Assembly: GCA_963965975.1 (NCBI GenBank)
Contig: OZ014411.1
Span: 9,921,501 to 9,985,500, forward strand
Origin: Xestospongia bergquistia
Lineage: Eukaryota > Porifera > Demospongiae > Haplosclerida > Petrosiidae
Direction of reading: 5' to 3'
DNA: 64,000 bases
A model generated the notes under the pieces. That model saw only the letters and a program-made list of their open reading frames with translations. It did not search any database and was not told where the DNA came from. Position 1 is the first letter of the stretch. Every line of letters starts with the position of its first letter. The position numbers and the translations under genes are program-made. This document shows positions 27,305 through 60,000 of this stretch, in pieces.

Positions 27305-30300
27305 TTAAGTACTAGAAGTAGGTGTGGTCTCACCATCTACAAAGGAGACAAAAAAATCGGTATATAAGGCAGAAATGATAATTCATGTACTATTGATTTT
27401 AAAAAATTCTTATGTACTGCGAGCACAATGCTAGTAAAACATAATGTATATAATATACCTGGATATTCCTTCAAAAATTGACAGATTTCAATTGCTAGTG
27501 ATCTCTTCTGTAAGGGACCCTCTATAACTGTGATAAGATTATGCCATGTCACTGGAGTAGGCTCATTGTCCAACCAGCTCTGTAACATCTTAGACAACTT
27601 TACTTGGTCTGAAAAGTTGGAATAGCACAATCCTTCAATAGTGTCTGAATTAACACCAAGTAGATCACCAATCTCTTGCCATTTACTAGTGACAGAAGAG
27701 AACAGCCTTAGCATCACATGTTTCTGTGGCTTACTAACTGTAATAGAATAAGAATTAGAAACATGACATTATGACCAAAGTTAGAGCACAATTTCTATAG
27801 AAAACTATTACTAATATCTAAGTGGTTTTTGTGGCAAATGTGTACTAATATGTATAGTATATTTGTAAATAACAATACATAAAAAAAACTAATGATAGAA
27901 TTATCAAAGATAATGTAATGTTCATTAAGTCTCAATGTTTTCTTAGTAATTTTTATTGGCAACATCTACATGTAATAAAATACATCACCATTCATTTAAA
28001 ACTCTGACTTACAAAGTATAGAATTAGGTGGCATAGATAGCACACAGGCTTCTGCACTAGCTGTATGTGCTTCAGGAATAGAATCTAGCATTTAAGAAAA
28101 CAAAAGTAAATAAGATGTTACTATGTGATGAATGAACTCAGTCATACACACCTTTTAGCCAACAAAGTTGCCTCTCATCAATTACTTCAAAGGCAGCTAT
28201 CTCAGACTCAACTAGGCAATTTCCAAAAATGCAACCTTTATCATATTTAAAGGAGATGCCATGCAACTTGCCATCATCTTTTCGATGCTTCTGTTGACAA
28301 ACTAGAGTTGCCACAGGCTTCAACTGATCAACATCATATAGCAACAACTCAGTACATGTTGTCATTGCCTTTGTTATAGCTATGCGTACTTGAGGGCATT
28401 CTTTTTGAGGGCCAGTGAAGTAAACTTCGATACATTTAAAATTATCAACTAGGAGAACAGTGCCAAAGAGATCTTTTGAGTATAGCTTAACACCATAACG
28501 AAGTTGTCTTTCATAGGAACGGGATTCACTGTCAATAGAGAATTGAGGCGATCCTTGTCTTTGCAACAAAGATATCACAAGAGTAGGAAACATGCCCTAA
28601 AAATCAACATGTTTACTATTGTAAGTACACTCAGTAGATGTATGTTGTCAAAATGCTGTTGTCATAAAGTAGTTTGTAAATATATCTTTAGTAGTAGTAA
28701 TAATGTAACAACTGAAGACAAAACTTATCTTGGACTTGTATGAATTGTATAAGATAGAAATATGTGAAATAAAGTCATTACTTTGGCTTAAAAGTAACAC
28801 TGAAATCTAAATAAAGGCTTGGCATAATATTATACTTTAAGGAGGTAGGACTTTTACTAGGATTTATAAGATATTGAGAGTTAAAAATTCTTAATTGGAC
28901 CCAATAAGGAGAATGTAAACAATAGTGTGATTATGGCATAATGATGAGAGTAGCTCTCCTATTTGGCTCAATTACTCATTAGTTTTGATTTATAAATACA
29001 AATAAATCATGTGTAAATATGGCAAATGAATTGATAATATCACTATAAAAATTTAAATGAATAATGTTAAGGGTAGCTAAACATATTAAATGGAGCAATA
29101 TAATGGATTAATGCTTGCTTACACAATTATAGAACAAACATGACACTTAGCCATACCTGAGGGACAACTCGACCACTAAATTCAATAATCATTGGATCAC
29201 AAGATTTACCAAAGATCAGTTTATCCTCATCTGTCAGCTGACTAGGTGGCAACACAATAGGAATAAAATAACGGTTCAGAGAGGCTTCTGGAGCAGAGAG
29301 AGGAGCAATAATGCAAAGAGAACAAAGTAGCTTTAGAAAATCTTCTTTAGTGAAGAGTGGAGGTACAAAGGATAGAGAGAGATCATCAAGTAGAGAATCT
29401 TCAAATATACCATCTTCACGAAGGAGCCGTTGGGTCTCTGGAGATATAGAGTGACTACCAGGTAGTATTTCCTCCATCAAATCTACAAAGGAGACACTTA
29501 TCATACGAGAGAGCATGTCTAGAAGAAACTGAGGATCTGTAAATACAACATTCGGCAGCACTCTTGGAAAATGTAAAAATGAACTGAAGGAGTCGAGGTA
29601 GACAGCACACTGTAACACTTCTCTTCTATCCATTCCTAATTGAAAACCAATGTTGTAACAAGTCTCTAGGGAGATGATGCCATGTTGATTTTCTGTAATC
29701 TTGGTAACCTCTTTCAAAACACTTATTTCAAACACATACCAACGTACAGGTATAGGAACACTAAGGGCAATGCCAACTTTAGATGTAATTCGTTCACGAA
29801 TGGCAGAGGAGACTTTTTTTCGACTCCACCGGCAGAGATTATCAACAGGAAAGATCACCTCTTGAGAGTCGTTATCATGAAAAATAAACTGACTTTTAAA
29901 CTCATGCAGTGTTGACAAAAGCTGTGCATTTTTCTCTCTTAAAGTTTCATCAATCAGTGATTGCTTTTTAAGCTGCTTCTTTAACTTATCAAAATACGAG
30001 CCAACTATGACAAAGAGAGGCTTGGAGGCTACAACCATCTTTCCTGTTGATGCAACAATATTTTTAGATGACATTATGGAATGTACAAAACTTTCGATTA
30101 ACTCAAGATTGGTCATCTTTAACTCACTAGGCTCATGAAGTATTTTTCCATCAAGTGAATAGCAAAAACGAGGCTTATCAAAAAGACTTTCTGTTAATTT
30201 TGTAACAATGATATGGATTGCATTACCATGAAGGAAGAACCGAGATACATCAGCAAATTGAGGTTGACCACCACTATCGAGAACATGTATCCAAGTGGCT

Positions 30301-31705
30301 TTATGAAGCTGCTCAGATTTTTTGCGATTTAAGAGAAGGTCAACCATTTCTTTTGAATGAGAATTAACTTTTGTAGAGCTTGGCAACTGGGAGCTGTCGT
30401 CCATTGGAAATTCCATTTGAGATGGAGCAAACTTGGGTATGGTTTGCTGAGAATGAATATCATGATCACAAGATTGGGAATTGCTGTTGTCCATTGTAGT
30501 TATGGATATTGATACTTTGGCAACATTTTGCTTCTGCGTTAATGGAACAGATGGTTTCATGATATTATCATTTGATTTTATATTAATGTGATCTGGAGGT
30601 ACAGCTTCTTGGGAATTACGATCAAGATCTCGAACAGCATCTGAAAGCATCTTTAATAAATCAGGCCCAGTAATAGACACCCATATTTTGCCTTCCTTTA
30701 TATTTGCCACTCTTTCCATACCACGAATAGGACGGGTAGATATGGCTGTGCTGTGGTGCTTTTTTGGAGCAGGCCAATCAAAAAGAAGACTCTTAAATGC
30801 TGTTTTCCCAACACATGGTGGCCCAAGAAGAACCAATTTCAGACTTGTAATAAATACATAGCCTTCACGAAGACCACGTCTAAACATAAGCTGATATTCT
30901 CCTACAAAATAGAGATATTGCATTTATTTATTACTGTAATTAATACATAACTACTTTCTAAGGAACTACTACAAATGGCACTTACCTAATTACCTTACAT
31001 GTATATATAGCAACTCATAACCTATCTGCCTATCTTTTAATCATTACTACTGATAATAATTATGATTAAGAAAAAGTGATGGTAGAGTCTCTTAAGATGG
31101 AAAAATGTCTACTGACATATTATTTCTAATTTGAGTATGTAAAAGTTTGACATTGACACAGTTTCATTTAACAAGTGACATCACCCACTTATCTATCTAT
31201 CAAGGAATGTTTCTACTTATACATTCCTACACATTCCTTACTTCTTTCAAACAATGCTTTAAAATACTGCTCGTCTTTAATGTAGTCAAGTAAAGTTTTG
31301 CCATCCTAAAATTGAAAAAATGTTATTTGATACTTACAAGGTAAAACACTGCAAAAAATTAATACAAATATAACTCCTAACTTAAGGTATTTAGATCATT
31401 CTATTATCAATACACACAAAGTATTGTTTACTGAATAATTGGATTATATGCACAAACAGTGATATGCTACAAGTTATGTGGCATGTACCTGTCATATACT
31501 TAATTGTTTCCCATTGAAATCATTTTAATTTAGATATATTTAAGCCACAAATCCCAACCCAAGTATCAAGAATTTTGAATATATATTTTAATGGGTATCT
31601 GTCAAATATCTCATTTTATAAACATCTGCACTATATCAATAGGTAGAAACCTTATGTTTCTCATTAATATCAATGGGAATTATTTATAACATGTATGTAT
31701 GTATG

Positions 31706-31934: not shown

Positions 31935-33616
31935 GAATATCTGAACCACGATATCTGTGATATAAATTATCATGAGACTCATTACTAAACTGCAGTTGCC
32001 ACTATCATACAATAAAATAGTATGTGGCGTAGTAATCAATATTCTTTTAAAATCATGAATATGTAATGTATATAGATCCATCAACAATGAAAGATCTGAC
32101 AAAGTTTATCATGAGATTCATATAAACATTTCATATTATAGAACTGACACCTGATTCAAAATAAAAGGACTATGAATAAAGAATAAGAAATGTATGTTGG
32201 ATTATGAGTGTACATTGAATATCCTATACAACAGAGCAATGGTATAATTACTTCACATAGACAGAAAATAACACATTGGGAATCCTTACAAGTGAGAAAA
32301 TGAACCTGCAGCAAAAACAGAGGATCCTAATAAAATCAGGAAATAATTTTTTTAGCAAGCTCATCGTCACAAAAACCAGTATATGACCATTTGTAAATCT
32401 TTATAAAAAGGACAAGATCAGTTCAAATGAAGAGGTGTGGTTATTAATTCCATCTAAGCATACTTAATGTATTTCTGTTAAGTTACATATTCATATGCTA
32501 TACTATCCTAATATACATATTAATACTATAATTAATTTGGTCTATTACTTTATTATAAAGATATCAAATTTGCAGTATATCAACTTGATAAAGTCATGAA
32601 CAATATTTTAAACAATATAACAATATATTATCTAATAGTGATTATCCAGTAATAGCTAAATAAATTACCTCATTAGCAATGTTGATATCAGCACCATTTT
32701 CTACTAAAGCTTCTACAATGTCTCTATGTCCTTTATAAGCTGCATAATGAAGGACAGCCCACCCATTCTATTGGAATATAAAATATATCTTCATTACACA
32801 CAACAAAGTATCAATATTATACATATTAGCTACACATACCTAAATCATATACTTATATAGTACATGTACAATATGACTGTCATTACACTAGGTATGACTG
32901 TGATGTATATATATTGATGTTAGTGTTGTAATATTGAGCAACTACATATAAATCTTTATATCTTCTATATAATTGTCTGTATAGGTATTACTACCAATAA
33001 AATCAGGTCAGCCAATACAAGATGCTTTTATGTATAACATTAAAACAACAAATTTAAAGGACTATTAACAAAACACTAACACAAAAATTACTTTGAATAG
33101 AAAAATACATTATGAAATGAATGGCTGAGTGTCTGAAAACAATTCTATTATGAAGCTCTTTATATCACTCATATTATTATAATGTCTATATGAAACAGTT
33201 CATTGCAAATAATCAAAGGCAATAAAGACTACATTAAATGCAGGTATTTAAAAGATAAACTTGTTGACTATAGAAATAGATTTACTAATGTAATAATAAA
33301 ACAAGAAGTAGTTGATATCACTACTAAAATAATTATTTGTCACAACAATATAATGAGCAATAACAACAGAAATATAGAACATCCAAGCATCGTAGTCTAA
33401 GTATTTGTGTGTTTTGTACACAGTCATAAGCTGGATCTAATAAGATTTAATTGTATTGACTGACAAAACATTTTATCTATGCCTTCAACTACATATATGT
33501 AGTTAAATGTGTAGTATATTACTGTCCTCCATTTCAGTTTGAATAACATCTTACTCATAAAGTTAGGTATACTAATAAATTATCTAATAAGTACACCATG
33601 TAATGTGTACTATATT

Positions 33617-33668
<52 letters not shown>

Positions 33669-36600
33669 ATGTTAATAAAAAAGTATGGTGTTTATCTATC
33701 TGTAGGTATATAATGAGAATAGCTATATAGAATATAGAAAATTGATTGATGTGAATGTTATAATGACACTTTCAGTAATATTATTTTATATATTATGTTA
33801 TAGCTTTGAATCAATAAGAATAATTTAATTCATTCTATTGGTATAGTCTTACAAAAATACAACAGATGTAGATAAGAATATGCCAAAAATACCTATCGTC
33901 AAAGAGGGAGGAACTACATTTTCAGTTACATAACGTTTCTAACACTATATACTAACAAACATATACATTCTTACTTTGTTAACAAGGTCCACATTAGCTC
34001 CTCTCTGTATTAAAAACAAACTAACATCTTTTTTTCCATTCATTGTTGCTAACATGACAGCAGTAGATCCTACCTAAACACATCATAATAAAAAATTAAT
34101 GTAAAAGAAAGCAGAGTTATAACAGTTGTAGATTACTGTACTAGATCAGCAATTATTATGCTACAATAGATATGTTTTACAAGCCTTCTATATCACAAGC
34201 ATTATATATATAACAATGGTATTTGATAGTCAGTAGTAAAAAAAGATACATTAATTTATTTGTAGGAGAGAAAAACCTGACATTCCGTTTAAAGAATCAG
34301 ATGTTTACAAAGCTGATATTTCTCAGATTCACAAAGAAACACATTTGAAGACTAGACTCTATACCATTAAAGTACATTTAAGATATACAACTACAGCTAC
34401 AGCTAAACACCATTAATGAACATCAGGCAAATAGAAACAAACTAGCCTATATTTACGTCATGTCTTTGTGAATAGTGGATTCACAGTGTTAGCAAATTAA
34501 CAAAACATTAACTCTTGTGTATTTATTAATTTAGTTTTAATAACACACACTTTTCATGATAATTATAGTTCAAGAAATTTGAGAGTAGGTTGTCATGTTT
34601 ATACAAAGAATTACATAATAAACCAAGAACCTACAATATCATTGATACAATCAATATTAATCAAAATTCACTAATATGTTAAAACAATAAAAATACTTAA
34701 AAGTTATACTACATTAAAATAAACTAACCGGCTATTAAATTATTTAAAGACCATGTTTAGAAGAAAGCAAATGCAACACCATTAAAAAAGAGACAAAAAA
34801 TAATAATATATTTTAAAGAAAAACAATACATTCAAAACAATACAAAATATATTACATTATATCATACTTACCTCCTATTATATTATGAAGATGAAATTTA
34901 GAAGACAAGTAGTCCCAACACCAGAAAAGTGGAGACAAAAAAATAAAAATGACAACAACACATTCAATACATTTATAAATTGTACCAGATTATATCATAC
35001 TTACCTCCTATTATATTACAAAGAAGACATTCAGAAGACAAGCAATTATAACACCACATAATTGAAGACAGAAAAGAATAATATATTACAAACAAAATCA
35101 TTACATTTGAAATACTTACAAAATATATTACATTATATCATACTTACCGGCTATTATATTACGAAGACAACATTCAGAAGACAAGCAATTACAACACCAT
35201 AAGAGTGAAGACAAAAAAAGGACAACAACACATTCAATACACTTATAAATTGCACTACATTATATCATACTTACCCACTATTATATTATAAAGATGATAT
35301 TTAGAAGACAAGCAATGAAAACAACATAAAAATGGTGAGACAAAGAACAATAATATATTACAAACAAAATCATTACATTCAAAATACTTACAAAATATAT
35401 TACATTATATCATACTTACCCGCTATTATATTATGATGACAACATTCAGGAGACAAGCGATTACAAACACCATAAAAGTGAAGACAAAAAACAATAATAT
35501 ATTACAAACAAAATCATTACATTCAAAATACTTACAAAATATATTACATTATATCATACTTACCTCCTATTATATCATGAAGACAACATTCAGGAGACAA
35601 GCGATTACAACACCATACAAGTGAAGACAAAAAACAATAATACATTACAAACAAAATCATTACATTCAAAATACTTACAAAATACATTACATTATATTAT
35701 ACTTACCTCCTATTATATTATGAAGACAACATTCAGAAGACAAGTAATTATAACACCATAAAAGTGATGACAAAAAACAATAATGTATTACAAACAAAAT
35801 CATTACATTCAAAATACTTACAAAATATATTACATTATATCATACTTACCTCCTATTATATTATAAAGATGACATTCAGAAGACAAGTAATTACAACAAA
35901 ATAAGTGTGAAGACAAAAAACAATAATATATTACAAAAAAAAATCATTACATTCAAAATATTTACAAAATATATTACATTATATCATACTTACCTCCTAT
36001 TATATTACGAAGGCAACATTCAGAAGACAAGCAATTATAGCACCATAAAAGTGAAGACAAAAAACAATAATATATTACAAACAAAATCATTACATTCAAA
36101 ATACTTACAAAATATATTACATTATATCATACTAACCTCCTATTATATTACGAAGGCAACATTCAGAAGACAAGCAATTATAACACCATAAAAGTGAAGA
36201 CAAAAAGCAATAATATATTACAAACAAAATCATTACATTCAAAATACTTACAAAATATATTACATTATATCATACTTACCTCCTATTATATTATAAAGAT
36301 GACATTCAGAAGACAAGCAATTATAACACCATAAAAGTGAAGACAAAAAACAATAATATATTACAAACAAAATCATTACATTCAAAATATTTACAAAATA
36401 TATTACATTATATCATACTTACCCACTATTATATTGTAAAGATGACATTCAGAAGACAAGCAATTATAACACCATAAAAGTGAAGACAAAAAACAATAAT
36501 ATATTACAAACAAAATCATTACATTCAAAATACTTACAAAATATATTACATTATATCATACTTACCTGCTATTATATTATAAATATGACATTCAGAAGAC

Positions 36601-39600
36601 AAGCAATTATAACACCATAAAAGTGAAGACAAAAAACAATAATATATTACAAACAAAATCATTATATTCAAAATATTTACAAAATATATTACATTATATC
36701 ATACTTACCTGCTATTATATTATAAAGATGACATTCAGAAGACAAGCAATTATAACACCATAAAAATGAAGACAAAAAGCAATAATATATTACAAACAAA
36801 ATCATTACATTCAAAATACTTACAAAATATATTACATTATATCATACTTACCTCCTATTATATTACGAAGGCAACATAAGACAAGCAATTATAACACCAT
36901 AAAAGTGAAGACAAAAAACAATAATATATTACAAACAAAATCATTACATTCAAAATACTTACAAAATATATTACATTATATCATACTTACCTCCTATTAT
37001 ATTACGAAGGCAACATTCAGAAGACAAGCAATTATAATACCATTAAAGTGAAGACAAAAAACAATAATATATTACAAACAAAATCATTACATTCAAAATA
37101 CTTACAAAATATATTACATGATATCATACTTACCAACTATTATATTACGAAGACAACATTCAGAAGACAAGCAATTATAACACCATAAAAGTGAAGACAA
37201 AAAACAATAATATATTACAAACAAAATCATTACATTCAAAATACTTACAAAATATACTACATTATATCATACTTACCTCCTATTATATTACGAAGGCAAC
37301 ATTCAGAAGACAAGCAATTATAACACCATTAAAGTGAAGACAAAAAACAACAATATATTACAAACAAAATCATTACATTCAAAATATTTACAAAATATAT
37401 TACATTATATAATACTTACTCGCTATTATATTATAAAGATGACATTCAGAAAACAAGCAATTATAACACCATAAAAGTGAAGATAAAAAACAATAATATA
37501 TTACAAACAAAATCATTACATTCAAAATACTTACAAAATATATTACATTATATCATACTTACCACCTATTATATTACGAAGACAACATTCAGAAGACAAG
37601 CAATTATAACACCATAAAAGTGAAGACAAAAAACAATAATATATTACAAACAAAATCATTACATTCAAAATACTTACAAAATATATTACATTATATCTTA
37701 CTTACCACCTATTATATTACGAAGACAACATTCAGAAGACAAGCAATTATAACACCATAAAAGTGAAGACAAAAAACAATAATATATTACAAACAAAATC
37801 ATTACATTCAAAATACTTACAAAATATATTACATTAAATCATACTAACCTCCTATTATATTACGAAGGCAACATTCAGAAGACAAGCAATTATAACACCA
37901 TAAAAGTGAAGACAAAAAACAATAATATATTACAAACAAAATCATTACATTCAAAATATTTACAAAATATATTACATAATATCATACTTACAAACTATTA
38001 TAATATGAAGGCAACATTCAGAAGACAAGCAATTATAACACCATAAAAATGAAGACAAAAAACAATAATATATTACAAACAAAATCATTACATTCAAAAT
38101 ATTTACAAAATATATTACATTATATCATACTTACTCGCTATTATATTTTAAAGATGACATTCAGAAGACATGCAATTATAACACCATAAAAGTGAAGACA
38201 AAAAACAATAATATATTACAAACAAAATCATTACATTCAAAATACTTACAAAATATATTACATAATATCATACTTACCAACTATTATATTACGAAGACAA
38301 CATTCAGAAGACAAGCAATTATAATACCATTAAAGTGAAGACAAAAAACAATAATATATTACAAACAAAATCATTACATTTAAAATACTTACAAAATATA
38401 TTACATTATATCATACTTACCGCCTATTATTTTATGAAGACAACATTCAGAAGACAAGCAATTATAACACCATAAAAGTGAAGACAAAAAACAATAATAT
38501 ATTACAAACAAAATCATTACATTCAAAATACTTACAAAATATATTACATTATATCATACTTACCTGCTATTATATTATAAATATGACATTCAGAAGACAA
38601 GCAATTATAACACCATAAAAGTGAAGACAAAAAACAATAATATATTGCAAATTAAATCATTACATTCAAAATACTTACAAAATATATTACATTATATCAT
38701 ACTTACCTCCTATTATATTACAAAGGCAACATTCAGAAGACAAGCAATTATAACACCATAAAAGTGAAGACAAAAAACAATAATATATTACAAACAAAAT
38801 CATTACATTCAAAATATTTACAAAATATATTACATAATATCATACTTACCAACTATTATATTATAAAGATGACATTCAGAAGACAAGCAATTATAACACC
38901 ATGAAAGTAAAGACAAAAAACAATAATATATTGCAAACAAAATCATTACATTCAAAATACTTACAAAATATATTACATTATATCATACTTACCTCCTATT
39001 ATATTACGAAGGCAACATTCAGAAGACAAGCAATAATAACACCATAAAAGTGAAGACAAAAAACAATAATATATTACAAACAAAATCATTACATTCAAAA
39101 TATTTACAAAATATATTACGTTATATCATACTTACTCGCTATTATATTTTAAAGATGACATTCAGAAGACAAGCATATATAACACCATAAAAGTGAAGAC
39201 AAAAAACAATAAAATATTACAAACAAAATCATTATATTCAAAATACTTACAAAATATATTACATTATATCATACTTACCCGCTATTATATTATAAAGATG
39301 ACATTTAGAAGACAAGCAATTATAACACCATAAAAATGAAGACAAAAAACAATAATATATTACAAACAAAATCATTACATTCAAAATATTTACAAAATAT
39401 ATTACATTATATCATACTTACCCACTATTATAATTATAAAGATGACATTCAGAAGACAAGCAATTATAACACCATAAAAGTGAAGACAAAAAACAATAAT
39501 ATATTACAAACAAAATCATTACATTCAAAATATTTCAAAATATATTACATTATATCTTACTTACCCGCTATTATATTATAAAGATGACATTCAGAAGGCA

Positions 39601-42600
39601 AGCAATTATTATATCATAAAAGTGAAGACAAAAAGCAATAATATATTACAAACAAAATCATTACATTCAAAATATTTCAAAATATATTACATTACATCTT
39701 ACTTACCCGCTATTATATTATAAAGATGACATTCAGAAGGCAAGCAATTATTATATCATAAAAGTGAAGACAAAAAGCAATAATATATTACAAACAAAAT
39801 CATTACATTCAAAATACTAACAAAATTTATTACATTATATCATACTATGAGACAAGGTATAAGAAGAACCATCCTTCAAATTTATCTCAGAAAGTTGTAA
39901 TTGAGCATTTGTAAGTCTTTTAAAAAAGGAAATATTTCACATAAAGAGGTGTGGCTATTAATTCCATCTAAGCACACTTAATGTATTTCTGTTAAGCTAC
40001 ATATTCATAAGCTATACTATCCTAATATACATGTTATTACTATAATTAATTTGGTCTATTACTTTATTATAAATGTATTAAATTTGCAGTTTATAAACTT
40101 GATAAAGTCATGAACAATATTTTAAACAATATAACAATATATTATCTAATAGTGACCATCCAGTCATAGCTTACACGTTACCAATGTATGGAATAAAAAC
40201 ACATTTATCTAAATTACCTCAGTAGCAATGTTGATATCAGCATCATTTACTATTAAAGCTTCCACAATATCTCTATGTCCTTCATAAGCTGCAAAATGAA
40301 GGGCAGCCCACCCAATCTATTGAAATATAAAATATATCTTCATTGCACACAACAAAGTATCAATATTATACATATTAGCTATACATACCTAAATCATATC
40401 CTTGTATAGTACATGCATAGAATGACTATAACTACACTAGGTATGACTGTGATGTATATATATTGATGTTAGTGTTGTAATATTGAGCAACTACATATAA
40501 ATCTTTATATCTTCTGTATAACTGTCTGTATAGGTATTACTACCAATAAAATCAGGTCAGCCAATACAAGATGTTTTATGTATAACATTAAAACAACAAA
40601 TTTAAGGGACTATTAACAAAACACTAACACAAAAAATACTCTGAATAGAACATGTTGACAATAGATATACCAATGTAACAATAGTAAAAAAAATTAGTTA
40701 ATTTGGTTCCTAAAATGATTAGGTTAATAGTTACAACAAAAAAATGAACAATAAAGCAGAAGTATAGAACATCCTAGCATTACAGTGTAAGAGCATTAGT
40801 GAGCTTTGAATAATTACATTCAAAGAAATCTGTAATTAACCTTGATGTGCGTGGGCTCATAGCGAGGGCTACTGTAGTCTTTCAGTGTGTGTGTTACCCG
40901 GGCAAATGGCTTGAATTGCTTTAACTCGGCAAACACGGCACTGGTAGCCACCAAACTATAGTGGACGGTAGCAAAACTTCTGTACTTCTTAAGAATACTG
41001 CCAAATGAACAAAAAGCTTTGAAAGTCTGAAAAACTTTGAAAAAAAGCACAGCTTTCAGTGAAGACTTAAGAATTCCTGAATACAGCTTATGGCATTTTC
41101 CAACTTTTTAAAGTGAGAATTTTGGAAAAAATATTTCTTTGGAAAGTTATGACAATTTTACTAACTTTTGGCAGTTATCTTTGTCGATACATTGAGCACG
41201 ATCTAAAAATACTAGCACCACAGCTGTCATTGGAGAATCACTGGGTTTTACTAAGAAGTTGGAAAGTATTGGGCCTTTTGTCAATTAGAGTGCAAAGTAC
41301 CCAGTAGACGCACTAAAAGGCAAAGCTTTTCTCCCTTTGATGAAGAAAAATGCCGAGTCATCAATAATCATCTTGCGCACATGTAAGATTACATCACTTG
41401 AGGAGGATAAGGAAGTCTCTGGATAATACCGCAGCGAGGTTAAGCACTTTAGTGCATTTCATTTATAACAGGATTCAGTTTTGTTTGACAGGGAAAACAG
41501 TTTGTTAAAGCCTTTAAATGCACATGTACTATGTGTAGTCAACTATGTGGCATATTACTATGTTTCATCTCATTTTGAACAGACAGAACTAATTTGTAAA
41601 TGCTTTTAACTGTATATGTGTAGTATACTACTGTCACTCATGGACATAAAATAAGATATATTAACAAAGAAATAACTTCTCTCGTGTACATTATATTATA
41701 TATTATATACAGTGGGGACAAAAATAATTGAATGACTCCTTTATATTACTTGTAATAGTTAAATATTTGTAAACCACATGCACATTTCCACTTAAAGCAT
41801 TTAAAGGATTACAACTGTACACTATTTTCAATGTAATTCCTTTTTAGCTGTATAATAACTGTTATATCTAGTCTCCTTAATTTTATCCATTTAACCTAAA
41901 GTCCATACTTTTTAGTTATGCATGGAGGCAAGCCAACTAATGAATACAAAAAAATAAAATTATTATTTTAAAAAAGAAGGCATGTCCTACAGAGATGTAG
42001 AGAAAAGTTCATTTTCCCAAGTCAACAGTTATTGATGTTTGGATTTGATATAATGAAATGTACAGTACTAAAATTAAGTAAAATTCCAGATAGACAATTA
42101 TCTTCAATATCAAGACAAATAGACTATAAACTAGGATGTCTCTGCAAAAACATACTTAACTGCTCCTCCACTTTGATTGCCTGGCAAGATGCCCATGTAT
42201 CTTAACAAGTAAAATTAAGTCTCAATTGGCATCTTCTAGGCTAAATGTTGCATTGCCAGACAGAAGCCCCTATAATAACACTACATCATTGGCAGTTCCA
42301 CCTTCAATTCACTCAAGAATAATTGTAATAACTGGACCATAGATGATTAGATGAAAATAATATGGAGTGATGAGAGTAAATTCAATCTAATTAAAATCAA
42401 TGAAAGGACATACATCAGGCAATTAGTGTCAGAGGAGTTCAGAGATGAGCTTGTATATATTCAAAGAAAATATTTTAAGATTGCTGTCACATTAATGAAA
42501 AAAGTATATAATTAACGAAACTAACTTACCAAAAAATCCATACTATTTACATCTTCCCCTTTTGAGATAGCATCTTTTACACCTGACAAATCCCCTTTCT

Positions 42601-46473: not shown

Positions 46474-49400
46474 CCACTCCAATAAGATTCATTGTTTCCT
46501 ATTACACGCGCGGGCGGCGGTATTATTCATTATTTTATTAAACATTAATTATTTTGTAACAAAAAATTCAAAGTGCACTGAAACCAACTTTTACTTTTTG
46601 ATGATTGGTTTGCCAACACAGCTGACACGACGAGGATAGCTGCTGGTACTAGTGAATGGTTCTTCTATACCACAATGAATACAAAGTGGTTCATACTGTG
46701 CTGAATAGTACAGCTTCTCGATTGTGTCATGACAGGAGTGGTCTCTAATTTCTATAGATTTGTTAGGAAGGTCAGCCAGTTTAGACCCACAGGTATAGGT
46801 GAAATCATCAAGTAACGACTGCAGCTTCCTCCGTTGCTCAGGTTTTAACTTGTTTTTCGAGAATACTAGCCTCCACATATCACATTCGCTGCACTGTATA
46901 ACGAGATCAGCATTCTTGACATGCTGCAGACAGCCATAAAATGGGAGACTATTTTTGCCTTTACTATTTGACTTGAAGGATGGACATTCCTCTATTGTTT
47001 CACTTCCAAAACCTTCAGAAAAAGGCTTGTAGTGATTATCTTCTCCAAGTACTGGATGAGGGATATGGTGCAGCTTTTGAAAGACATCAGCTGGAAGTTT
47101 AACAGGTTTGCAGAGAGTACATATTGCTTTCCCACATTTCAAAATATCGAACATATACTGAGTAGACTGGCAGCAATGTGAGATAAACTCTGCTATGGAA
47201 GAGTGTTGGTTTAAATTATCCTTACAATATCTTCCTCCTTCCTGTAGAGTTGCATCGACTGCAATAAAAGCAGACCAAAAATCATGCAGTTCATCTGGAG
47301 AAGCTGATGCAAAAGTCCTATATAGAGACTAAGTACTTTGACCGGAGAAAGAGAATCTTGGACAGCTAATTTAATTCCACTCTTGTGTGATGCAATTTTT
47401 CTCAGTTCAGTGAGGTTGTTACATTTTCCAACTTCTTTCTCGAAATCATCAGGCATTAGATCACGAGCTAACCCAACACATTGAAGCCCCAAGTTAAGCA
47501 CTGACATGATTCACTCGACCGGGTTCCTCCAACTATGGTATGGAGCTGTTCGTCCAGCACAGAGATAATCTAAGTCCAATTTCAAAAAGATACATATTAA
47601 GGAAAGCTTGACAGACACGTATGTGAGACGATGGTCTGGACCTCCATCTGTGTATAAGAACAAAACGGACTTTGAAAATGACTGAGATTGCATAAGCTGA
47701 TATAACTTGCATGTGTGTCTGAATGGTGATGACAGCTCAAATATTGCGTCTTTAAGTCCAAAAAAAAACAGTACCTACAATGTAAAATCACAGATTTATA
47801 ATAGTATCAAATTAAAAATAGTGTACATTATGTCAGTTGTTGTTTCCCCATTTCAAAAAAAATATCTGAAAAATGCTTACAAAAATTTCTGATAGTTGAG
47901 ACATGAAAACCAAGTGTAAATAGCAGTCAGGATAATGCTAGAAAGATTGCATAAAATTTTCATGCATAACATAAAATCTGAATATCGGCAAGGTCCTCAT
48001 GTAAGCGCATATCTTTTTATAAGCAGTCTACTGTAACAAATACTAGATATAGGCTTTTTTCACTCTACTGTCATTCGCCATTATACTCCAAGCCAGCATT
48101 TAACTACAATTCAGGGGTGCAATTCCTCCCTAGCCATGTACATGACTTAAGGAGCAAGAATTTTAACCTTATTTGTAATGGTATTTTGCCTGTGTAGTGT
48201 ACCACACCTTAAATCATTAATTTTATTACTGACTAGCATATAAGCGTGTCTTTCTTCTGGTACTGTGGAGACACGAGCATATGTGCTTTTATAATATTCA
48301 AGATTTAACAACATGGTTATTCATGGAAAAAAGGTTGCTTGAATACTACATGTGGCAACTTAATTGGCACATCTCGAAACATTGCAACATCAACATTATG
48401 TGAAATACTTATGCCTCAAAAATTACATAGAGCTTTGACAAATTAAGCCACCTTTTTATTTATACAAGCTCATAGATACATAATTACAGTACACATGTGT
48501 ACATCATACCTGAGTACCAAGAATCAGAGATTTGACGAGGTATATCGACAAAAAAGACAACTGAAGGTAGAAGGTATGAGTGAGAATTTTGTAAAATCAT
48601 GGTACCCAACAGTGAGAAATTCGTCTAGTCGGACAGGGACTCTCCTCCCTCTCTCAGCCTATGCAACTGAAAATCCTGGCTCACCTACTTTCACTTTATG
48701 TTTATCATCAAGACAAACGAAGGAATAGTGGTCCCTTACAGTAAGAGCATACTCCCACATATAACAAAACGAGGCTGCTGCATAATGAGAATCTGGATGT
48801 TGTTGGCGCCACTGTCTCTGTTGTATCATGAATTTCATCTCAAATCGTCCTGTGTATTGCAGAGATCTCCTGGCAGATGGTGTTTTGGGCCAGAATTGAA
48901 GGCGCACCCACTCTAATGATGGTATAGGTGTCCCAGGAGGGCAACGTACTTGAACTTGTTCCACCAGATCTCTGATAGAAACTGCTCTAGACAGGTGAGT
49001 AATTAGTCCATGGCGTCTATCGTCAACAGCTGCAGAAATATCTTCAGTCAAAAATTTTTGACACTCTTCCCAAAAAGAATCGTATTGACTAGCTTCATTT
49101 GTATTGAGAGATCGAAGGTCAAATATGATGCTAGGATCTTCCATGTCTATGAGTTCACGAACTCGAGTATCAATCTGAGCCTCATCCGTTGTTGTAGATG
49201 CAGATTAATCACCTGTAAATACAGTTACCAACCATAAAATAAGTGTACAATACTGACTAACCTGTAAGATCCTTATAAAAATAACATAAAACGGCTGGCT
49301 TAACAGATGAAGAAATGAGGCCAAACTTTCGGAACATAGCTATTTTCATAGCCCTACTATGGTAAACTAGAAAAGTTCTTTTTATTTCTACTATAACTGC

Positions 49401-50622
49401 TTGACTTCTTTCGAAAATTAGGCTTGGTTCGATGCCCTCTGGTACTTTCCAAGCAAAGACTTGATTACCAATATTGCTACCAGGAGAATAGACTAGTATG
49501 ACACATGGATATGACAAACCAATAGAAAATAAGGTGTCCATGAAACGATGCTTCTGAACAGAATCAGAGGGGAGGAAGTGCATCAAAGTCTCGTATTGAT
49601 AATCAGATTTGTCTTGAAGCAAATGATTGATATATTCCAATGAGGAAGATGCTTGTAGAAACAAAGCTGGTACAATGAACTTAAATTTTAGGTTACTGGA
49701 TAGTTCATGAGCAGAAGTGGGTGATTTGTGATAAAGCTTCATACGCTTTGCTTTCTTTGTCAAGTACTGGCCATAAGATGATAAACTTTCAGCGAGTTCT
49801 ACGAAATGTGGTTTAAGCTCAATCCATTGTGGTCTTTCCCAGAAATTATTACTTTGAAGAACAGTGGACATATTAAGTGCAAACTCATGCAGTTGATCAG
49901 CAGATATATTGCATGTCAATCTCTTGCGGTGTTTCGAGAGTTGGGGAGTGTTATACCCAGTGAAGCACGAAAAGATCGAAGGAAGAGCAAGGGCTCTGTT
50001 CTGAAATACATGATGGTGGCTGTTGACATACCATAGTATATCTCGCAAGATGTGTACTAGCTTTTTTGCTGACTTCAATTCACTCGAATCATTGAAAAAA
50101 GCACCATGCCTTGATAAGAAAGAGATGATATCATTAAAGAACTTGTCTTTTTTGTTTCTTTCTTGAATGAATTCTATGGTAATGCCACTGCTTGGCCAGC
50201 TGACATGAAACTTCCAGGAGACTCTTGACCAGTCAAGCATGCTGGTAAAGCAAGCATACTGTCCTCAACCATCACATGGTACTTCATGAAATGTCCAAAC
50301 GACTTGATCACAAGAACGAGTGACAAATTTTCATCACTAACACAATCGAGAGAGTCCTTGTTCGATCCGACGTAGACAGATAAAACACGACCACATTCAA
50401 ACGTCACCCTAGGCTTTACTGTGTTCATAAAAAATCACCAATACTGTGCGCTTCATCCTCCACTCGTAAGATAGTCCAATTCAACAAAATATGTTTCGTT
50501 TCAGCAGCAAGAACACACGTGTTAACCAACGCCATTGTCACCTCAGAAATAATTAAAATCTATTCATCAGAAGCGGTAGTATGCGGGCGGGAAACAGGAA
50601 ACAATGAATCTAATTGGAGTGG
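46474..50622 (-). mobile_element. Decayed 4.1-kb DDE-type DNA transposon with 27-bp inverted ends
   Basis: The left end 46474-46500 (CCACTCCAATAAGATTCATT...) and the right end 50596-50622 are inverted repeats with one or two mismatches, each next to a GC-rich subterminal patch (GCGCGGGCGGCGG at 46507; ATGCGGGCGGG at 50581). Between them lies one multi-exon transposase-like gene on the - strand (next entry). The flanks CTATAG and TCTAAA do not give a clean target-site duplication. The family is not one I can name. It is unrelated in sequence to the Tc1-like elements nearby. Confidence 0.85.
46591..50535 (-). pseudogene. Inactivated transposase-like gene (integrase-fold DDE motifs, Cys-rich C-terminus)
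   Basis: Reading starts at the ATG at 50535 (MALVNTCVLAAET) and continues in broken frames to the stop near 46591. A frameshift lies in the T run near 50430 and another near 50215. A long open part follows (about 50200-49260), then an apparent intron ending near 49210 with a stop just inside the next exon. Then come SFVCLDDKHKVKVGEPG (candidate first Asp), a stop near 48657, a frameshift near 48590, an intron to about 47780, YTDGGPDHRLTYVSVKLSL (second Asp), RTAPYHSWRNPVE (candidate Glu), a TGA at 47510-47508, and a frameshift near 47320. The C-terminal part has spaced CxxC pairs (CTLCK, CSECDMW, CIHCG). The TGA after NPVE fits CGA-to-TGA decay at a CpG. The TDGGPDH...NPVE layout recalls retroviral-type integrase cores. 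Clearly non-functional. Confidence 0.8.
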
Positions 50623-54095: not shown

Positions 54096-57000
54096 TTAAG
54101 TACTAGAAGGAGGTGTGGTCTCACCATCTACAAAAGAGACAAAAAGACAAATCAGTATACAAGGCAGGAATGATAATGCATGTACTATGAGAATAATACA
54201 TTGATCTTATGTACTGCGAGCACAATGCTAATAAAACAAAAGCATATAACATACCTGGATATTCCTTCAAAAACTGACAAATTTCAATTGCTAGTGATCT
54301 CTTCTGTAAGGGACCCTCTATAACTGTGATAAGATTATGCCATGTCACTGGAGTAGGCTCATTGTCCAACCAGCTCTGTAACATTTTAGACAACTTAACT
54401 TGTTCTGAAAAGTTGGAATAGCACAATCCTTCAATAGTGTCTGAACTAACACCAAGTAGATCACCAATCTCTTGCCATTTACTAGTGACAGAAGAGAGCA
54501 GCCTTAGCATTACATGTTTCTGTGGCTTACTAACTGTAATAGAATAAGAATTAGAAACATAACATTATGACCAAAGTTAGAGCACAATTTCTATAGAAAA
54601 GTATTACTAATATCTAAGTGATTTTAGTTGCAAATGTGTACTAATATGTACAGTATATCTGTAAATAACATTAAATACATTAAAAAACTAATGATAGAAT
54701 TATCAAAGATAATGTAATGTTCATTAAGTTTCAATGCTTTCTTAGTAATTTTTATTGACTACATTAACATGTAATAAAATACATCACCATTCATTTAAAA
54801 CTCTGACTTACAAAGTATAGAATTAGGTGGCATAGATAGCACAGAGGCTTCTGCACTAGCTGTATGTGCTTCAGGAATAAAATCTAGCATTTAAGAAAAC
54901 AAAAGTAAATAAGATGTTATTACATGATAAATGAATTCAGTCATACACTCACCATTTAGCCAGCAAAGTTGTCTCTCATCAATTACTTTAAAGGCAGCTA
55001 TCTCAGACTCAACTAAGCAATTTCCAAAAATGCAACCTTTATCATATTTAAAGGAGATGCCATGCAACTTGCCATCATCTTTTCGATGCTTCTGTTGACA
55101 AACTAGAGTTGCCACAGGCTTCAACTGATCAACATCATATAGCAACAACTCTGTACATGTTGTCATTGCCTTTGTTATAGCTAGGCGTACTTGAGGGCAT
55201 TCTTTTTGAGGGCCAGTGAAATAAACTTCAATACATTTAAAATTATCAACTAGAAGAACAGTGCCAAATAGATCTTTTGAGTAGAGCTTAACACCATAAG
55301 GAAGTTGTCTTTCATAGGTACGGGATTCACTGTCAATAGAGAATTGAGGTGCTTCTTGCCTTTGCAACAAAGACACCACAAGAGCAGGAAATATGCCCTG
55401 AAATAAAAATAGCATTTGTGTTATTGTAAGTTCTACTTATTACTGAATATGTAAAGTTAAGGTAAAGTAAAGCTATTATAATTCATTGATGTAGTATAAA
55501 ACTGTTACATGTCACACTTCCTCTGTAGTCTGCAGTTATGGAGTTAAATGGACAAAACAGAGATTGCTTCTAAATAGTTAACTAAAAGGTAAGGGCTATA
55601 GTTACAAGCTGAGATAACACCAATAATTGATGTAAGCTTGGGATAAGGATATTACGGGAAAACTTATTTCAGTACTCCAACTGCTGCCATCATGAAAATG
55701 CCTGTATTTATAGTTTTTAAAATTAATAGTGATGTGCCAACTAAAGACATAGCATAGACTTCTACATATGTAAATCTATTAACTAAAGTAATTACTCTAG
55801 AACAAAGGTAACATGATATCTGAATAATGGCCTAATACAGTCTTACATATTTTAAAGGAGATAGAAATTTCATTATTATTACAATCAGAATTAGCACATG
55901 GCTTATTTTTTTAACAAATTAAATAACCCATCTAATTGTACACAAATTACTAAAGTAGCATGATAATACAAGGATTAGCACTTACTCAAGCCAGTCAGGT
56001 AATGATCTGATCACTTTTTGACATGTAAGATTATCATATTTAACAATTCTCGCATTTTTGCATATTAAGAATATAATCACTGTATACAATCCTTTTGTCC
56101 TAACTTTACTCTTTGCACATCAATTCTTACGCATCATAAATCTTAATATGATAATCTGCTATGTTCTTTCATTTTCTTTGATACTATTATTGTTTTGTGA
56201 CATTAAGTTAAGAGGCACACCTTATAAATAATCATTTGTTACCCAAAAATTGCTCTTTGTTTTGTTCAGTGTATTGATCTTACTACTTTTTTAGCTTTCT
56301 ACAGCCCTGTGATATGTTAAAATAGCTGTGCTATTTGGCTTAAACAATCAATAACTTTTTTACTAAAATATATTGAGACAATTGGTAAGACAGTCAATAT
56401 TACAAATCTAAAAAATCATTCTAATTTAAAGGTTAAATGAATAATACTGAGAGTAGCTGACATCTTAACAAAGCAAGATAAATGTTTAATATACATGACT
56501 TTACACAATTACAGAACAAACATGACACTTAGTCATACCTGAGGAACAATTCTACCACTAAATTCAATAATCATTGGATCACATGATGTTGCAAAGATCA
56601 GTTTATCCTCATCTGTTAGCTGACTAGGTGGCAACACAATAGGAAGGAAGTAACGGTTCGGACAGGCTTCTGGATCAGAGAGAGGAGCAATGATGCAAAG
56701 AGAGCAAAGTAGCTTTAGAAAATCTTCTTTAGTAAAGAGTGGAGGTACAAAGGGAAGAGAGAGATCATCAAGTAGAGAGTCTTCAAATATACCATCTTTA
56801 CGAAGGAGCTGTTGGGTCTCTTGAGATATAGAGCAACCACCAGGTAGTATTTCCTCTGTCAAATCCACAAAGGAGACACTGATCAAGCAAGAGAGCACCT
56901 CTAGAAGAAACTGAGGATCTGTGAATACAATATTTGGCAACACTTTTGGAAAAAATAAAAATGAACTGAAGGAATCAAGGTAAACAGCACATTGTAACAC

Positions 57001-60000
57001 TTCACTTCTATTCATTCCTAATTGAAAACCAATGTTGTAACAAGTCTCTAGCAAGATGATGCCATGTTGCCTTTCTGTAACCTCTGTAACCTCTTCCAAA
57101 ATACTTATTTCAAACATATACCAATGTACAGGTATAGGAACACTAAAGGCAATGCCAACTTTAGACGTAATTCGTTCACGAATGGCAGATGACACTTCTT
57201 TTCGACTCCACCAGCAGAGATTATCAACAGGAAAGATTACCTCTTGAGAGTTGTGATCATGAAAAATAAATTGACTTTTAAACTCATGCAGTGTTGACAA
57301 AAGTTGTGTTTTTTTCTCTTAAAGCTTTAATCAGTGATTGCTTTTTAAACTGCTTCTTAAACTTATCATAATTAGTGCCAACAATGACAAAAAGAGGCTT
57401 GGAGGCTACAACCATCTTTCCTGTTGATGCAACAATATTTTTAGATGACATTACAGAACGTACAAAACTTTCAATTAGCTCAAGATTGGTCATCTTTAAC
57501 TCACTAGGCTCGTGAAGCATTTTTCCATCAAGTGAATAGCAGAAACAAGGCTTATCAAAAAGACTTTCTGTTAACTTGGTACAAATGACATGGATTGCAT
57601 TACCATGAAGGAAGAACCGAGATACATCAGCAAATTGAGGTTGACCACCACTATCAAGAACATGTATCCACATTGCCTTGTGAAGCTGCTCAGACGTCTT
57701 CCTCTTTAAAAGAAGGTCAATCATTTCTTTTGAGTGAGAAATAGATTCTGTAGAACTGAGTAATTGGGAACTGTCATCTTTTGTAATTTCTATATGTGAT
57801 GAAGTAAACTGTGACATATCTGGTAAAGAATGATCCACATTCAGAGTTTGTTCAGGTTTTAATTCTGTGTACAGTTCACTTGGTTTTGTAACAGGACTGT
57901 CTGTGGGTATAGCTTCCTGAGAATGAAGATCAGGATTGTAAGACTGGGATGTGCAGTGGTTTGGAATTTCCTTTGTAGTTATGACTTTTGGTAAAACATC
58001 AACATTTTCATACTGAACTAAAGGAACAGATTTGATAGAAGCATCATTTGACTTTATACTAATATCATCTGGAGGTATAGCTTGTTGGGATTTACGATCA
58101 TCAAGATCTCGAATGGCATCTGAAAGCATCTTTAATAAATCAGGCCCAGTAATAGGTAGCCATATTTTGCCTTCCTTTTTATCTGCCACTCTTTCCATAC
58201 CACGGATAGGACGGGTAGATATGGCTGTGCTGTGGTGCTTTTTTGGAGCAGGCCAATTAAAAAGAAGACTCTTAAATGCTGTTTTCCCAACACATGGTGG
58301 TCCAAGAAGAACCAATTTGAGACTTGTAATATACACATAGCCTTCATCTAGACCACGTCTAAATATGACCCGACATTCTGAAAAAAAAAATTGTAATTGC
58401 TGGATTGATCGGACATATCATTTTTTCTAAAGTACTGCAATTAGCACTTGCCTAACTATCACATATATATAACTCATGTAATGTGATAATGAATGAGATA
58501 ATAATTGAAATATCATCCTAAAATGGCTTTGAAAAAAATACATACTATTCAGTTAAATGCTGACTCTAGCTACAAAGATTGGACAATTAGTTGCAGTGTC
58601 ATGGTGTTTATGGTTAGGATTAATGAAATTTATAGTTGCTTTATGCATAAGTGGTTAAGGGATGCAATTTATTTTCATTAGATTGTCAAATTCAACAATA
58701 GAACAAAATGAAGCAAATAAAATTAAAAATATATATAACTTGCTGTTATAGGACTGCCGGGCATGCTTCATGAACCAGGCAAAAAGCATTGGTAAAGTTA
58801 TGTATCTTAAGATAGAAAACATGTGAGTAAAAATGTTTGGTGAAATATTTGATGTCAATGACTCATGTAGACTCATAATGACTCATATAGACATTGCTTT
58901 AAACTATTTAATATTAATTTTTTTAATATCTATTTTTATATTGATGATTCATATTCTTAAAATGTTTTGGTAGAATACAGATATATCTTTGAAAGGAATG
59001 ATTTAAGACTCATTACAGTTATTGTAAATTTTAGTAACACAAATTTGTAATCAAACTTTCAAATTCATTTCCTTGTAATTTAGCAAACAGAAACACGTTA
59101 ATAAATAAGTTCACATATTAAAAGCAGTTTATACAAAATTTCTAGTTTGCAAGTAACCTTGCCACATTAACAGAATTAACAATATAGATCAATGGTCAGG
59201 AGGTATCAATAAAGAAAATGTACTTCTCAAGTTTACATGTACACTGTAAGATATAGATATCCATAAACAAATTGTATTCACAAACATGTCAACACATATA
59301 TATAGTGTATGTGAAATGTGACATTGACATAGGCTCATTTCATAAGTGTCATTACTAACTTATATATCTATCTAGCAGTGTTCCTATCTCATCTATTCAT
59401 TCAACCATTATCACACATTCCTTACCTATTTCAATCACTGTCTTTAAAAATTGTTGGTCCTTGATGTACTCAAATGGAGTTTTGTTGTCCTAAAATGACA
59501 AAAACCTGATTACTGGGTAAATTCTAATTTGTATTAAATCATTCCGTTATCTTTTACTTAATGCTTTTCTCTTCCAATAAAAACATTTTCTAATGCAAAC
59601 CATATAAAATGTAATATATCCAAGCAACCTGACTCAATTAAATATTAATCTAATCTTTGGAAGTTAATTTTACATTGACAAGAATGAAATCATTCTGTTC
59701 ACATTGAGAAAGACCAATAACTCAGTTTTATAACTCTGGTTACGAATGAGGTAGATAGAAATGGTTTTCACCATTTAAAAGGCCTTTCAAGTCTGCAAAT
59801 CATTAAAAAACTAGAGCACTGGATAATTAGGAACATTACAAACCAGAAATAACATATAAAGTTAAGAGCATTTTTTGCATTCTACAATGACATAACATCA
59901 TGCAGACTTTCAATGTCATTAATGAACACTCACTCAAGTGTTCAGAAAAGTTCAGAAACTGTCAAACATACATTTAATAGTAAAAGTAGGACAGATTAAG

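Follow-up and report, generated by a model that had tools for sequence, protein, structure and literature searches.

A 64,000-nucleotide stretch of the genome of the sponge Xestospongia bergquistia (assembly GCA_963965975.1, contig OZ014411.1, here C1, positions 9921501-9985500; hereafter the window) contains, in one intron of a predicted ankyrin-ROCO-Death gene, a tandem bank of 36 units of about 143 bp, in each of which a single triplet lies exactly between a splice acceptor and a splice donor. The bank is part of something much larger than was first described, as the same unit fills many arrays across the genome. A sequence-only reading had proposed that the triplets are translated one-codon exons, and this is supported by their exact 3-nt length, by the absence of stop codons and by a hypervariability confined to the triplet. 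That such exons diversify the fingertips of ankyrin-repeat proteins, irrespective of how many are used per transcript, is given here a probability of about 0.85; that splicing brings the triplets into at least some transcripts, where they are translated, as the selection acting on them indicates, is a little more probable still.

Positions of single features are those of the window, and the arrays, exons and domains listed lie on its minus strand. Tandem Repeats Finder (TRF) delimits the array at 34690-39846, with a period of 143 bp, 36.3 copies and 89% matches, in agreement with the bank of about 36 units that had been placed at 34720..39845, and every unit (36/36) reads TAATAG, three bases and GT(A/T)AGT. 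The array, the exons enclosing it and the candidate micro-exons are as follows.

34690..39846, minus: array, 36 units of about 143 bp, that is, 36 candidate 3-nt micro-exons, with introns of 124-142 nt
40218..40316, minus: upstream 99-nt phase-0 ankyrin exon, A type, weak donor GTAATT
33975..34073, minus: downstream 99-nt phase-0 ankyrin exon, B type, acceptor TGTTTAG
39707..39709, minus: candidate micro-exon 1, CGG (R), the first of the array
39565..39567, minus: candidate micro-exon 2, CGG
39422..39424, minus: candidate micro-exon 3, TGG
39279..39281, minus: candidate micro-exon 4, CGG
39136..39138, minus: candidate micro-exon 5, CGA
38993..38995, minus: candidate micro-exon 6, GAG
38850..38852, minus: candidate micro-exon 7, TTG
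38707..38709, minus: candidate micro-exon 8, GAG
38564..38566, minus: candidate micro-exon 9, CAG
38421..38423, minus: candidate micro-exon 10, GCG
38278..38280, minus: candidate micro-exon 11, TTG
38135..38137, minus: candidate micro-exon 12, CGA
37992..37994, minus: candidate micro-exon 13, TTT
37849..37851, minus: candidate micro-exon 14, GAG
37706..37708, minus: candidate micro-exon 15, GTG
37563..37565, minus: candidate micro-exon 16, GTG
37420..37422, minus: candidate micro-exon 17, CGA
37277..37279, minus: candidate micro-exon 18, GAG
37134..37136, minus: candidate micro-exon 19, TTG
36991..36993, minus: candidate micro-exon 20, GAG
36852..36854, minus: candidate micro-exon 21, GAG
36709..36711, minus: candidate micro-exon 22, CAG
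36566..36568, minus: candidate micro-exon 23, CAG
36423..36425, minus: candidate micro-exon 24, TGG
36280..36282, minus: candidate micro-exon 25, GAG
36137..36139, minus: candidate micro-exon 26, GAG
35994..35996, minus: candidate micro-exon 27, GAG
35850..35852, minus: candidate micro-exon 28, GAG
35707..35709, minus: candidate micro-exon 29, GAG
35564..35566, minus: candidate micro-exon 30, GAG
35420..35422, minus: candidate micro-exon 31, CGG
35275..35277, minus: candidate micro-exon 32, TGG
35148..35150, minus: candidate micro-exon 33, CCG
35005..35007, minus: candidate micro-exon 34, GAG
34872..34874, minus: candidate micro-exon 35, GAG
34729..34731, minus: candidate micro-exon 36, CCG, the last of the array

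GAG is the commonest triplet of this array (14 times), followed by CGG (4), TGG, CGA, TTG and CAG (3 each), GTG and CCG (2 each), and GCG and TTT (1 each), with no stop among the 36. The two enclosing exons are each 99 nt long and open in phase 0, as had been claimed, and match the Pfam family Ank (PF00023) over positions 2-32 (40218-40316) and 2-33 (33975-34073) of 33. Since these neighbours are in frame and in phase 0, any number of 3-nt codons placed between them would keep the frame. Acceptors ending in AATAG had been pointed out at the exons beginning at 40316 and 32767, and both exons are indeed preceded by CAATAG. The description of the 35 introns between the micro-exons (124-142 nt) needs a correction: the AG-free stretch of about 105 nt ascribed to each unit exists when it is counted past a further AG ahead of the acceptor, but 24 of the 35 introns contain that AG, at offset 7, 18 or 31, so that the AG-free stretch starts later. 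Offset 31 is its position in 22 of these 24, and nearly all offset-31 AGs lie inside a second donor-like GTAAGT site, TTTTGTAAGTATTTTG (GTAAATATT in the others), about 29 nt past each donor, which could provide an alternative 5′ site in each unit.

The genome searched comprises 146.46 Mb in 21 contigs. A query with the window's unit gave 164 matches, many on other contigs, and 28 stretches around such matches, chosen, that is, by similarity to this unit, were fetched (individual loci carry L numbers below). At least three spaced motif units are present in 22 of the 28 and at least three hits of an intron-body profile in 27. The pattern TATAATAG-NNN-GTAAGTRTG has 1769 exact matches genome-wide (886 and 883 on the two strands), and its reversed control has none. 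When the same flanks are set at other distances, the genome holds three matches for a gap of 2 nt, one for 4 nt and none for 6 nt or 0 nt (the reversed control of the 0-nt pattern has one). Likewise, ATAATAG-Nk-GTAAGT occurs 519 times with k=3 in the window and the fetched loci, once with k=7 and never with the nine other values tried between 0 and 12. Chance splice motifs are ruled out by this series of gap lengths and the reversed control.

The junctions were also surveyed with a profile of the intron body only, trained on the pattern-found units with the junction columns left out. Between adjacent hits of this profile, 685 of 748 junctions read AG, 3 nt, GT; the others comprise 17 with the donor lost, five of zero length, one of 2 nt, two of 5 nt and 38 that are otherwise built or decayed. 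The 2-nt junction and both 5-nt junctions lie within one decayed array (L033), and two of the 17 rows without a donor (L036:4795 and L038:4621) are intact, with the triplet TAT, on a looser reading of the acceptor. The arrangement of a spliced micro-exon, AG and GT bounding exactly 3 nt behind a pyrimidine-rich tract, is found at these 685 junctions and at 36/36 in the window, and the candidate exons keep a length of exactly 3 nt. In the window and fetched loci, 409 copies of the exact motif compare with 685 three-nt junctions; scaling this ratio to the 1769 genome matches suggests a total of about 3000 candidate one-codon exons, a rough figure that carries over the similarity-chosen sample.

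Stop codons are missing from the triplets however these are collected. None of the 685 junction triplets located by the motif-free profile is TAA, TAG or TGA; the triplets keep the frame of the phase-0 flanks and are stop-free in the host phase. Among 626 pattern-found units there are likewise none, against 55.7 expected from independent base frequencies. For the 528 of these units that have a neighbour 100-165 nt upstream (74 array groups), 38.4 stops are expected, and the minimum in 5000 shuffles, each triplet position being permuted within arrays, was 23; when each triplet is counted once per array, the figures are 0 of 266, 16.8 expected and a shuffle minimum of 6. Triplets starting with T are common genome-wide (715 of 1769), and TAA or TGA occurs only twice. 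Among looser forms of the motif, W-AATAG-TAG-GTAAGT has three genome matches and its control six, and the corresponding TAA/TGA form has 16 against 13. Because triplets ending in AG are frequent among the 685 (GAG 108, AAG 32, CAG 13), TAG is apparently missing for its meaning and not through avoidance of AG. Judged by these counts, stop triplets are excluded from the banks of putative exons. In L035 a TGA occurs where the acceptor of the unit is itself destroyed (AATAA-TGA-GTAAGT). Three apparent stops in L019 were dismissed as overlaps of the pattern at ATA triplets. Two TAA triplets at the array ends L037:4657 and L038:5915 were also discounted; they have a CAG acceptor and a GTGAGA donor, and both fail the acceptor filter; the former overlaps a CCA reading four bases earlier, and the latter aligns with that CCA unit, its acceptor lost.

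The triplet also changes far faster than its surroundings. With the window units cut at an arbitrary point inside the intron, away from the junction, the two most variable of the 143 columns are triplet positions 2 and 1 (diversity pi 0.67 and 0.64; median 0.057). Mean within-array pi over the 21 arrays of at least eight units is about 0.67, 0.67 and 0.40 for triplet positions 1-3, while it is about 0 at the GT and AG dinucleotides and mostly 0.02-0.25 in the intron body. On trees built from the intron body, triplet positions 1-3 require 178-185, 181-189 and 91-96 parsimony changes; for 134 intron columns, withheld from the tree in blocks, the median is 20 and the highest count 75. Within-array pairs with one to four intron differences have different triplets in 54-81% of cases, at a per-site rate 17-39 times that of the intron, although these pairs overlap. 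The putative codon is thus the fastest-changing part of the unit while the predicted splice signals are kept. As the triplet outpaces sequence that should be near neutral, diversifying selection, a local mutator or codon exchange would be at work, together with strong removal of stops. Recombination as the sole cause of the triplet homoplasy was rejected, as held-out intron columns beside the acceptor do not share it; exchange of codons between units perhaps operates alongside selection. Between the recent duplicates L013 and L014, two positional unit pairs without any intron difference read CCG vs CTG and TGG vs CTG, and in the TGG/CTG case another L014 unit with an identical intron also reads TGG. 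Unit pairs of L024 and L025 can have the whole intron identical and all three triplet bases different (GAA vs AGC), which hints at replacement or exchange of the codon en bloc.

The neighbours of the banks were surveyed in 49 array groups of at least three hits (48 distinct, one being in both the window and L011), containing 3-46 profile hits among the groups listed, with a finder that sought 99-nt ankyrin-like exons. In the 16 groups where both neighbours could be read, all are 99-nt phase-0 ankyrin exons, 12 in the order A-then-B and four B-B. An upstream ankyrin exon was read in 27 groups and is of A type ('GW..LHYA') in 21; in the other six the nearest exon found is of B type and 0.8-1.8 kb off, so the actual neighbour may have escaped the finder. 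Downstream, an exon could be read in 29 groups and is of B type ('G.TPVMLA') in 28, the remaining one being of A type and 1.2 kb off (L038). Neither neighbour was read in nine groups, most of which lie close to the end of a fetched stretch or have exons foreign to the finder. The donors of the A-type upstream exons lack G at +5 in 19 of 21 cases (16 GTAATT, two GTAACT, one GTGATT), unlike those of the micro-exons, which are mostly GTAAGT. The codon alphabet varies by array: K, L and N in L020; S, L, R, E and T in L021; mainly E, R, F and D in array rows at C1:9.61-9.64 Mb. By plain comparison of counts, without a significance test, W, D, E, F, N, L, S and P exceed the base expectation (W 20 observed, 10.2 expected; D 17, 6.2; E 46, 26) and A, G, V, M, Q, H and stops fall below it (A 5, 14.7; G 9, 18.8; V 14, 25.3).

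In the mechanism proposed here, each unit of about 143 bp would be a complete micro-exon with its own intron, consisting of a T-rich tract, a (T)ATAATAG acceptor, a codon and a GTAAGT donor, and would have been amplified into banks that occupy phase-0 introns of ankyrin-repeat genes at many sites in the genome. Since a donor bound by U1 would cover the whole 3-nt exon, both of its sites could not be bound at once, and splicing would be expected to proceed stepwise. The weak GTAATT donor of the ankyrin exon would join one acceptor and add one codon; the joined codon would recreate a strong donor, NNN|GTAAGT, on the growing exon; and this donor would jump to the next or a later acceptor until the walk ends at the downstream ankyrin exon. 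Such a walk agrees with the weakness of the first donor and the strength of the internal ones. In ankyrin repeats, extra residues between repeats are placed at the tip of the hairpin, and because direct joining of the flanking exons gives ordinary ankyrin spacing, an extra codon would sit at this tip. Each transcript would accordingly carry, at the tip of the beta-hairpin finger between two repeats, a codon string variable in number and make-up, its diversity maintained by selection, perhaps with codon exchange between units. As the fingertip can contact ligands, receptor-like ankyrin proteins, here the predicted ankyrin-ROCO-Death protein, would thereby become more diverse in what they recognize. 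Use of the codons in variable subsets is slightly favoured, and even odds are given to the full proposal of a codon-by-codon splicing assembler, in which the spliceosome writes variable peptide strings, residue by residue, into ankyrin binding fingers. If true, it would amount to a combinatorial recognition repertoire in an invertebrate, with up to 2^36 codon subsets, and fewer distinct strings, from the window's intron.

Several observations weigh against the reading of the triplets as translated, diversifying exons. That they enter mRNA at all we infer from selection only. Two stop triplets occur within exact motifs genome-wide, one of them beside array loci (C1:9612268), and three looser TGA matches fall within 4 kb at C2:11390570-11394456 on the minus strand, possibly a decayed bank, although they could be real units. 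Among mutual-nearest pairs with no more than one intron difference, 29 of 45 have the triplet in common, as do 53 of 92 between-array pairs with no more than two. Five of the 748 junctions are of zero length (AG|GT), and some arrays look decayed (L033; the ends of L036 and L038). Neighbours of kinds other than 99-nt ankyrin exons would escape the finder, and the A-type exon at 32669-32767 shares the GTAATT donor, but no array unit was found downstream of it in the window. Folding tests revealed no RNA structure by which the choice of units would be ordered: flank-to-unit duplexes have mean z-scores of 0.0 upstream (n=22, -1.7 to 1.0) and 0.3 downstream (n=25, -2.5 to 1.8) in a crude test with 40 shuffles each, the lowest three downstream values (-2.3 to -2.5) belonging to L013, twice, and L011, and the self-folding z-score of the units stays between -1 and 1 in 22 of 25 representatives, two others reaching -3.3 and one -2.1. 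Finally, in 19 arrays the residue order has no periodicity beyond shuffles (P 0.19-0.62; angles of 60, 90, 100, 120 and 180 degrees), and identical residues adjoin neither more nor less often than expected. One fixed functional peptide is therefore unsupported, and combinatorial use is likewise without direct support.

Some alternatives keep the codons in the protein and differ in how many are used. All codons of an array might be constitutive, giving each gene an ankyrin fingertip with one fixed loop that evolves fast and is 3 to about 45 residues long. Every unit has strong, nearly invariant signals and short introns, and for stops to be all but absent each triplet must be under strong selection, most simply so when the triplets are in most mRNAs; however, 3-nt exons with strong sites on both sides escape the usual exon definition, so that skipping is expected, array length varies widely among paralogous introns to a degree hardly tolerable for a fixed structural loop, and the residue order is indistinguishable from shuffled, which also led to the rejection of a fixed structured peptide made from all codons in order. 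Such a loop is held to be unlikely, yet it is the most serious of the alternatives. A mutually exclusive, Dscam-like choice of exactly one bank codon per transcript would suit a bank of tandem, interchangeable alternatives whose variable part is diversified, and one extra residue would be a mild change where the direct A-to-B join already has canonical ankyrin spacing. This is rather improbable, since a joined unit recreates a perfect donor toward the next acceptor and nothing seen enforces exclusivity, docking/selector complementarity is lacking on average in the crude test described above (three downstream flanks reaching z -2.3 to -2.5), and selection against one stop among some 36 alternatives should be weak, yet stops are absent. 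Variable codon strings are favoured over one codon or a fixed loop because there is on average no docking complementarity and the residue order looks free.

The remaining alternatives deny the triplets a coding role. The units are tandem repeats within long introns, and could be a non-coding intronic satellite or a series of recursive-splicing ratchet points that never reach mRNA; ratchet points likewise pair an acceptor with a donor, and the five zero-length AG|GT junctions agree with this. It is nevertheless very unlikely, as it predicts neither stop avoidance nor the 3-nt length lock nor the excess change of the triplet, all three of which are observed. Two zero-length ACTAG|GTAAGT junctions inside a bank of L028 (plus strand, about 3623 and 6829) would act as true ratchet points. 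Least credible of all is that the triplet is the footprint of a process at the DNA level, such as target-site duplication by an intron-like element or junctional addition in the course of recombination, its coding being incidental. Intron-like insertion elements are known in other eukaryotes, and units whose introns have at most one difference can carry triplets two or three bases apart; but a target-site duplication should leave one and the same triplet at either end of a unit, whereas adjacent triplets are mostly unlike, and stop exclusion and the phase-0 ankyrin setting would be left unexplained. Coding on the opposite strand was rejected as well: its open stretches reach only 135 aa at most and recur with the 143-bp period, a length not divisible by 3.

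Known systems share parts of this arrangement. At a recursive-splicing ratchet point, an acceptor is followed directly by a donor, a long intron is removed stepwise and nothing is added to the mRNA. The banks differ in having 3 nt in between, apparently under coding selection, and the zero-length form has no genome match against 1769 for the 3-nt form and makes up 5/748 junctions. Dscam exons are long (parts of immunoglobulin domains), and one per bank is chosen, in some genes via docking/selector RNA structures. As far as the available parts of the sources describe them, the Dscam1 clusters of arthropods are likewise tandem banks of duplicated alternative exons that diversify a receptor-like protein (PMC1397879, PMC8042237, PMC6071210). 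The sponge banks also consist of tandem duplicated, interchangeable candidate exons between constant exons; unlike Dscam1, these comprise one codon, number well over a thousand in the genome and show no docking signal in the test above. The micro-exon genes (MEGs) of Schistosoma also have runs of very short, mostly in-frame exons, whose alternative splicing varies a protein family; in the accessible part of their description, there are 35 genes with 10-20 short exons each, mostly of 15 bp, the minimum being given as 6 bp in the text and as 3 bp in the abstract; the introns measure 0.1-5 kb, and the products are secreted (PMC10526429). The present banks are unlike MEGs in their homogeneous tandem units of about 143 bp, always with 3 nt, within one intron of an ankyrin gene, and the 10-20 dissimilar short exons of a secreted protein are not what the window array contains. 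Isolated 3-nt exons are reported in mouse Ncam and Drosophila TnT (PMC8042270) and 1-nt exons in plant APC11 and VPS55, the latter with a conserved GTRAGT donor (PMC8831610). Exons of 1-3 nt can therefore be spliced, but in the portions of these sources at hand they are single and not in banks, and the plant ones are conserved, not hypervariable.

Within the titles and opening lines of abstracts of the open-access papers that literature searches listed, preprints lying outside, no tandem bank of one-codon exons was found. We rate the banks as categorically new in kind, yet made of ordinary splicing parts. If confirmed, splicing would pick amino acids singly, a mode of diversification unlike V(D)J joining, gene conversion, Dscam choice or retroelement mutagenesis, and the question of how a recognition repertoire might arise in animals lacking lymphocytes would become open to test. 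Confirmation would also challenge exon-definition rules with respect to the minimum exon size and the processing of thousands of such exons, which gene annotation and ordinary RNA-seq alignment will overlook.

The further features of the host gene and a second, short array at the right end of the window (63600-63880, minus strand), upstream of a B-type ankyrin exon at 62787-62885, are as follows.

32669..32767, minus: next ankyrin exon of the host gene, A type, donor GTAATT
29130..30923, minus: Roc/COR-like open stretch of the host gene, 598 aa (Roc E 1.7e-4, COR-A E 4.4e-4, both below the Pfam cut-off)
27340..27768, minus: Death-domain-like open stretch of the host gene (E 0.0075, below the Pfam cut-off)
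63878-63880, minus: candidate micro-exon TCG of the second array
63732-63734, minus: candidate micro-exon GAG of the second array
63600-63602, minus: candidate micro-exon ATG of the second array

L011 adjoins the second array and holds two further short arrays of three and five codons; these and the second window array are about one tenth of the size of the main bank. Among the domains of the host gene, Ank lies above its Pfam cut-off, while Roc (22.2 bits, cut-off 27), COR-A (20.6, 35.3) and Death (16.8, 22.6) lie below theirs. Paralogues of the ROCO exon give at least 107 matches at E <= 1e-8; among those listed, only the two genes of the window and one in L012 are close to fetched arrays, and none was seen within about 160 kb of the others. 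On this list, ROCO genes were rejected as the general hosts of the banks. A Roc/COR-like stretch of the neighbouring gene (56512-58399, minus strand) aligns to a paralogue in pieces and with stops inside, and may therefore be interrupted by introns or degenerate. Long open stretches at 46594-50434 on the minus strand, between the two ROCO genes, give the impression of mobile element proteins. The ankyrin family of this sponge is very large, with 3976 first-look candidates for one repeat type, of which 150 were scored, and many of the listed candidates lie on the 28-Mb contig C1 at about 9.6-21 Mb. A minisatellite at 12143-13099, with 18 copies of 53 bp and 98% matches, is unrelated to the array.

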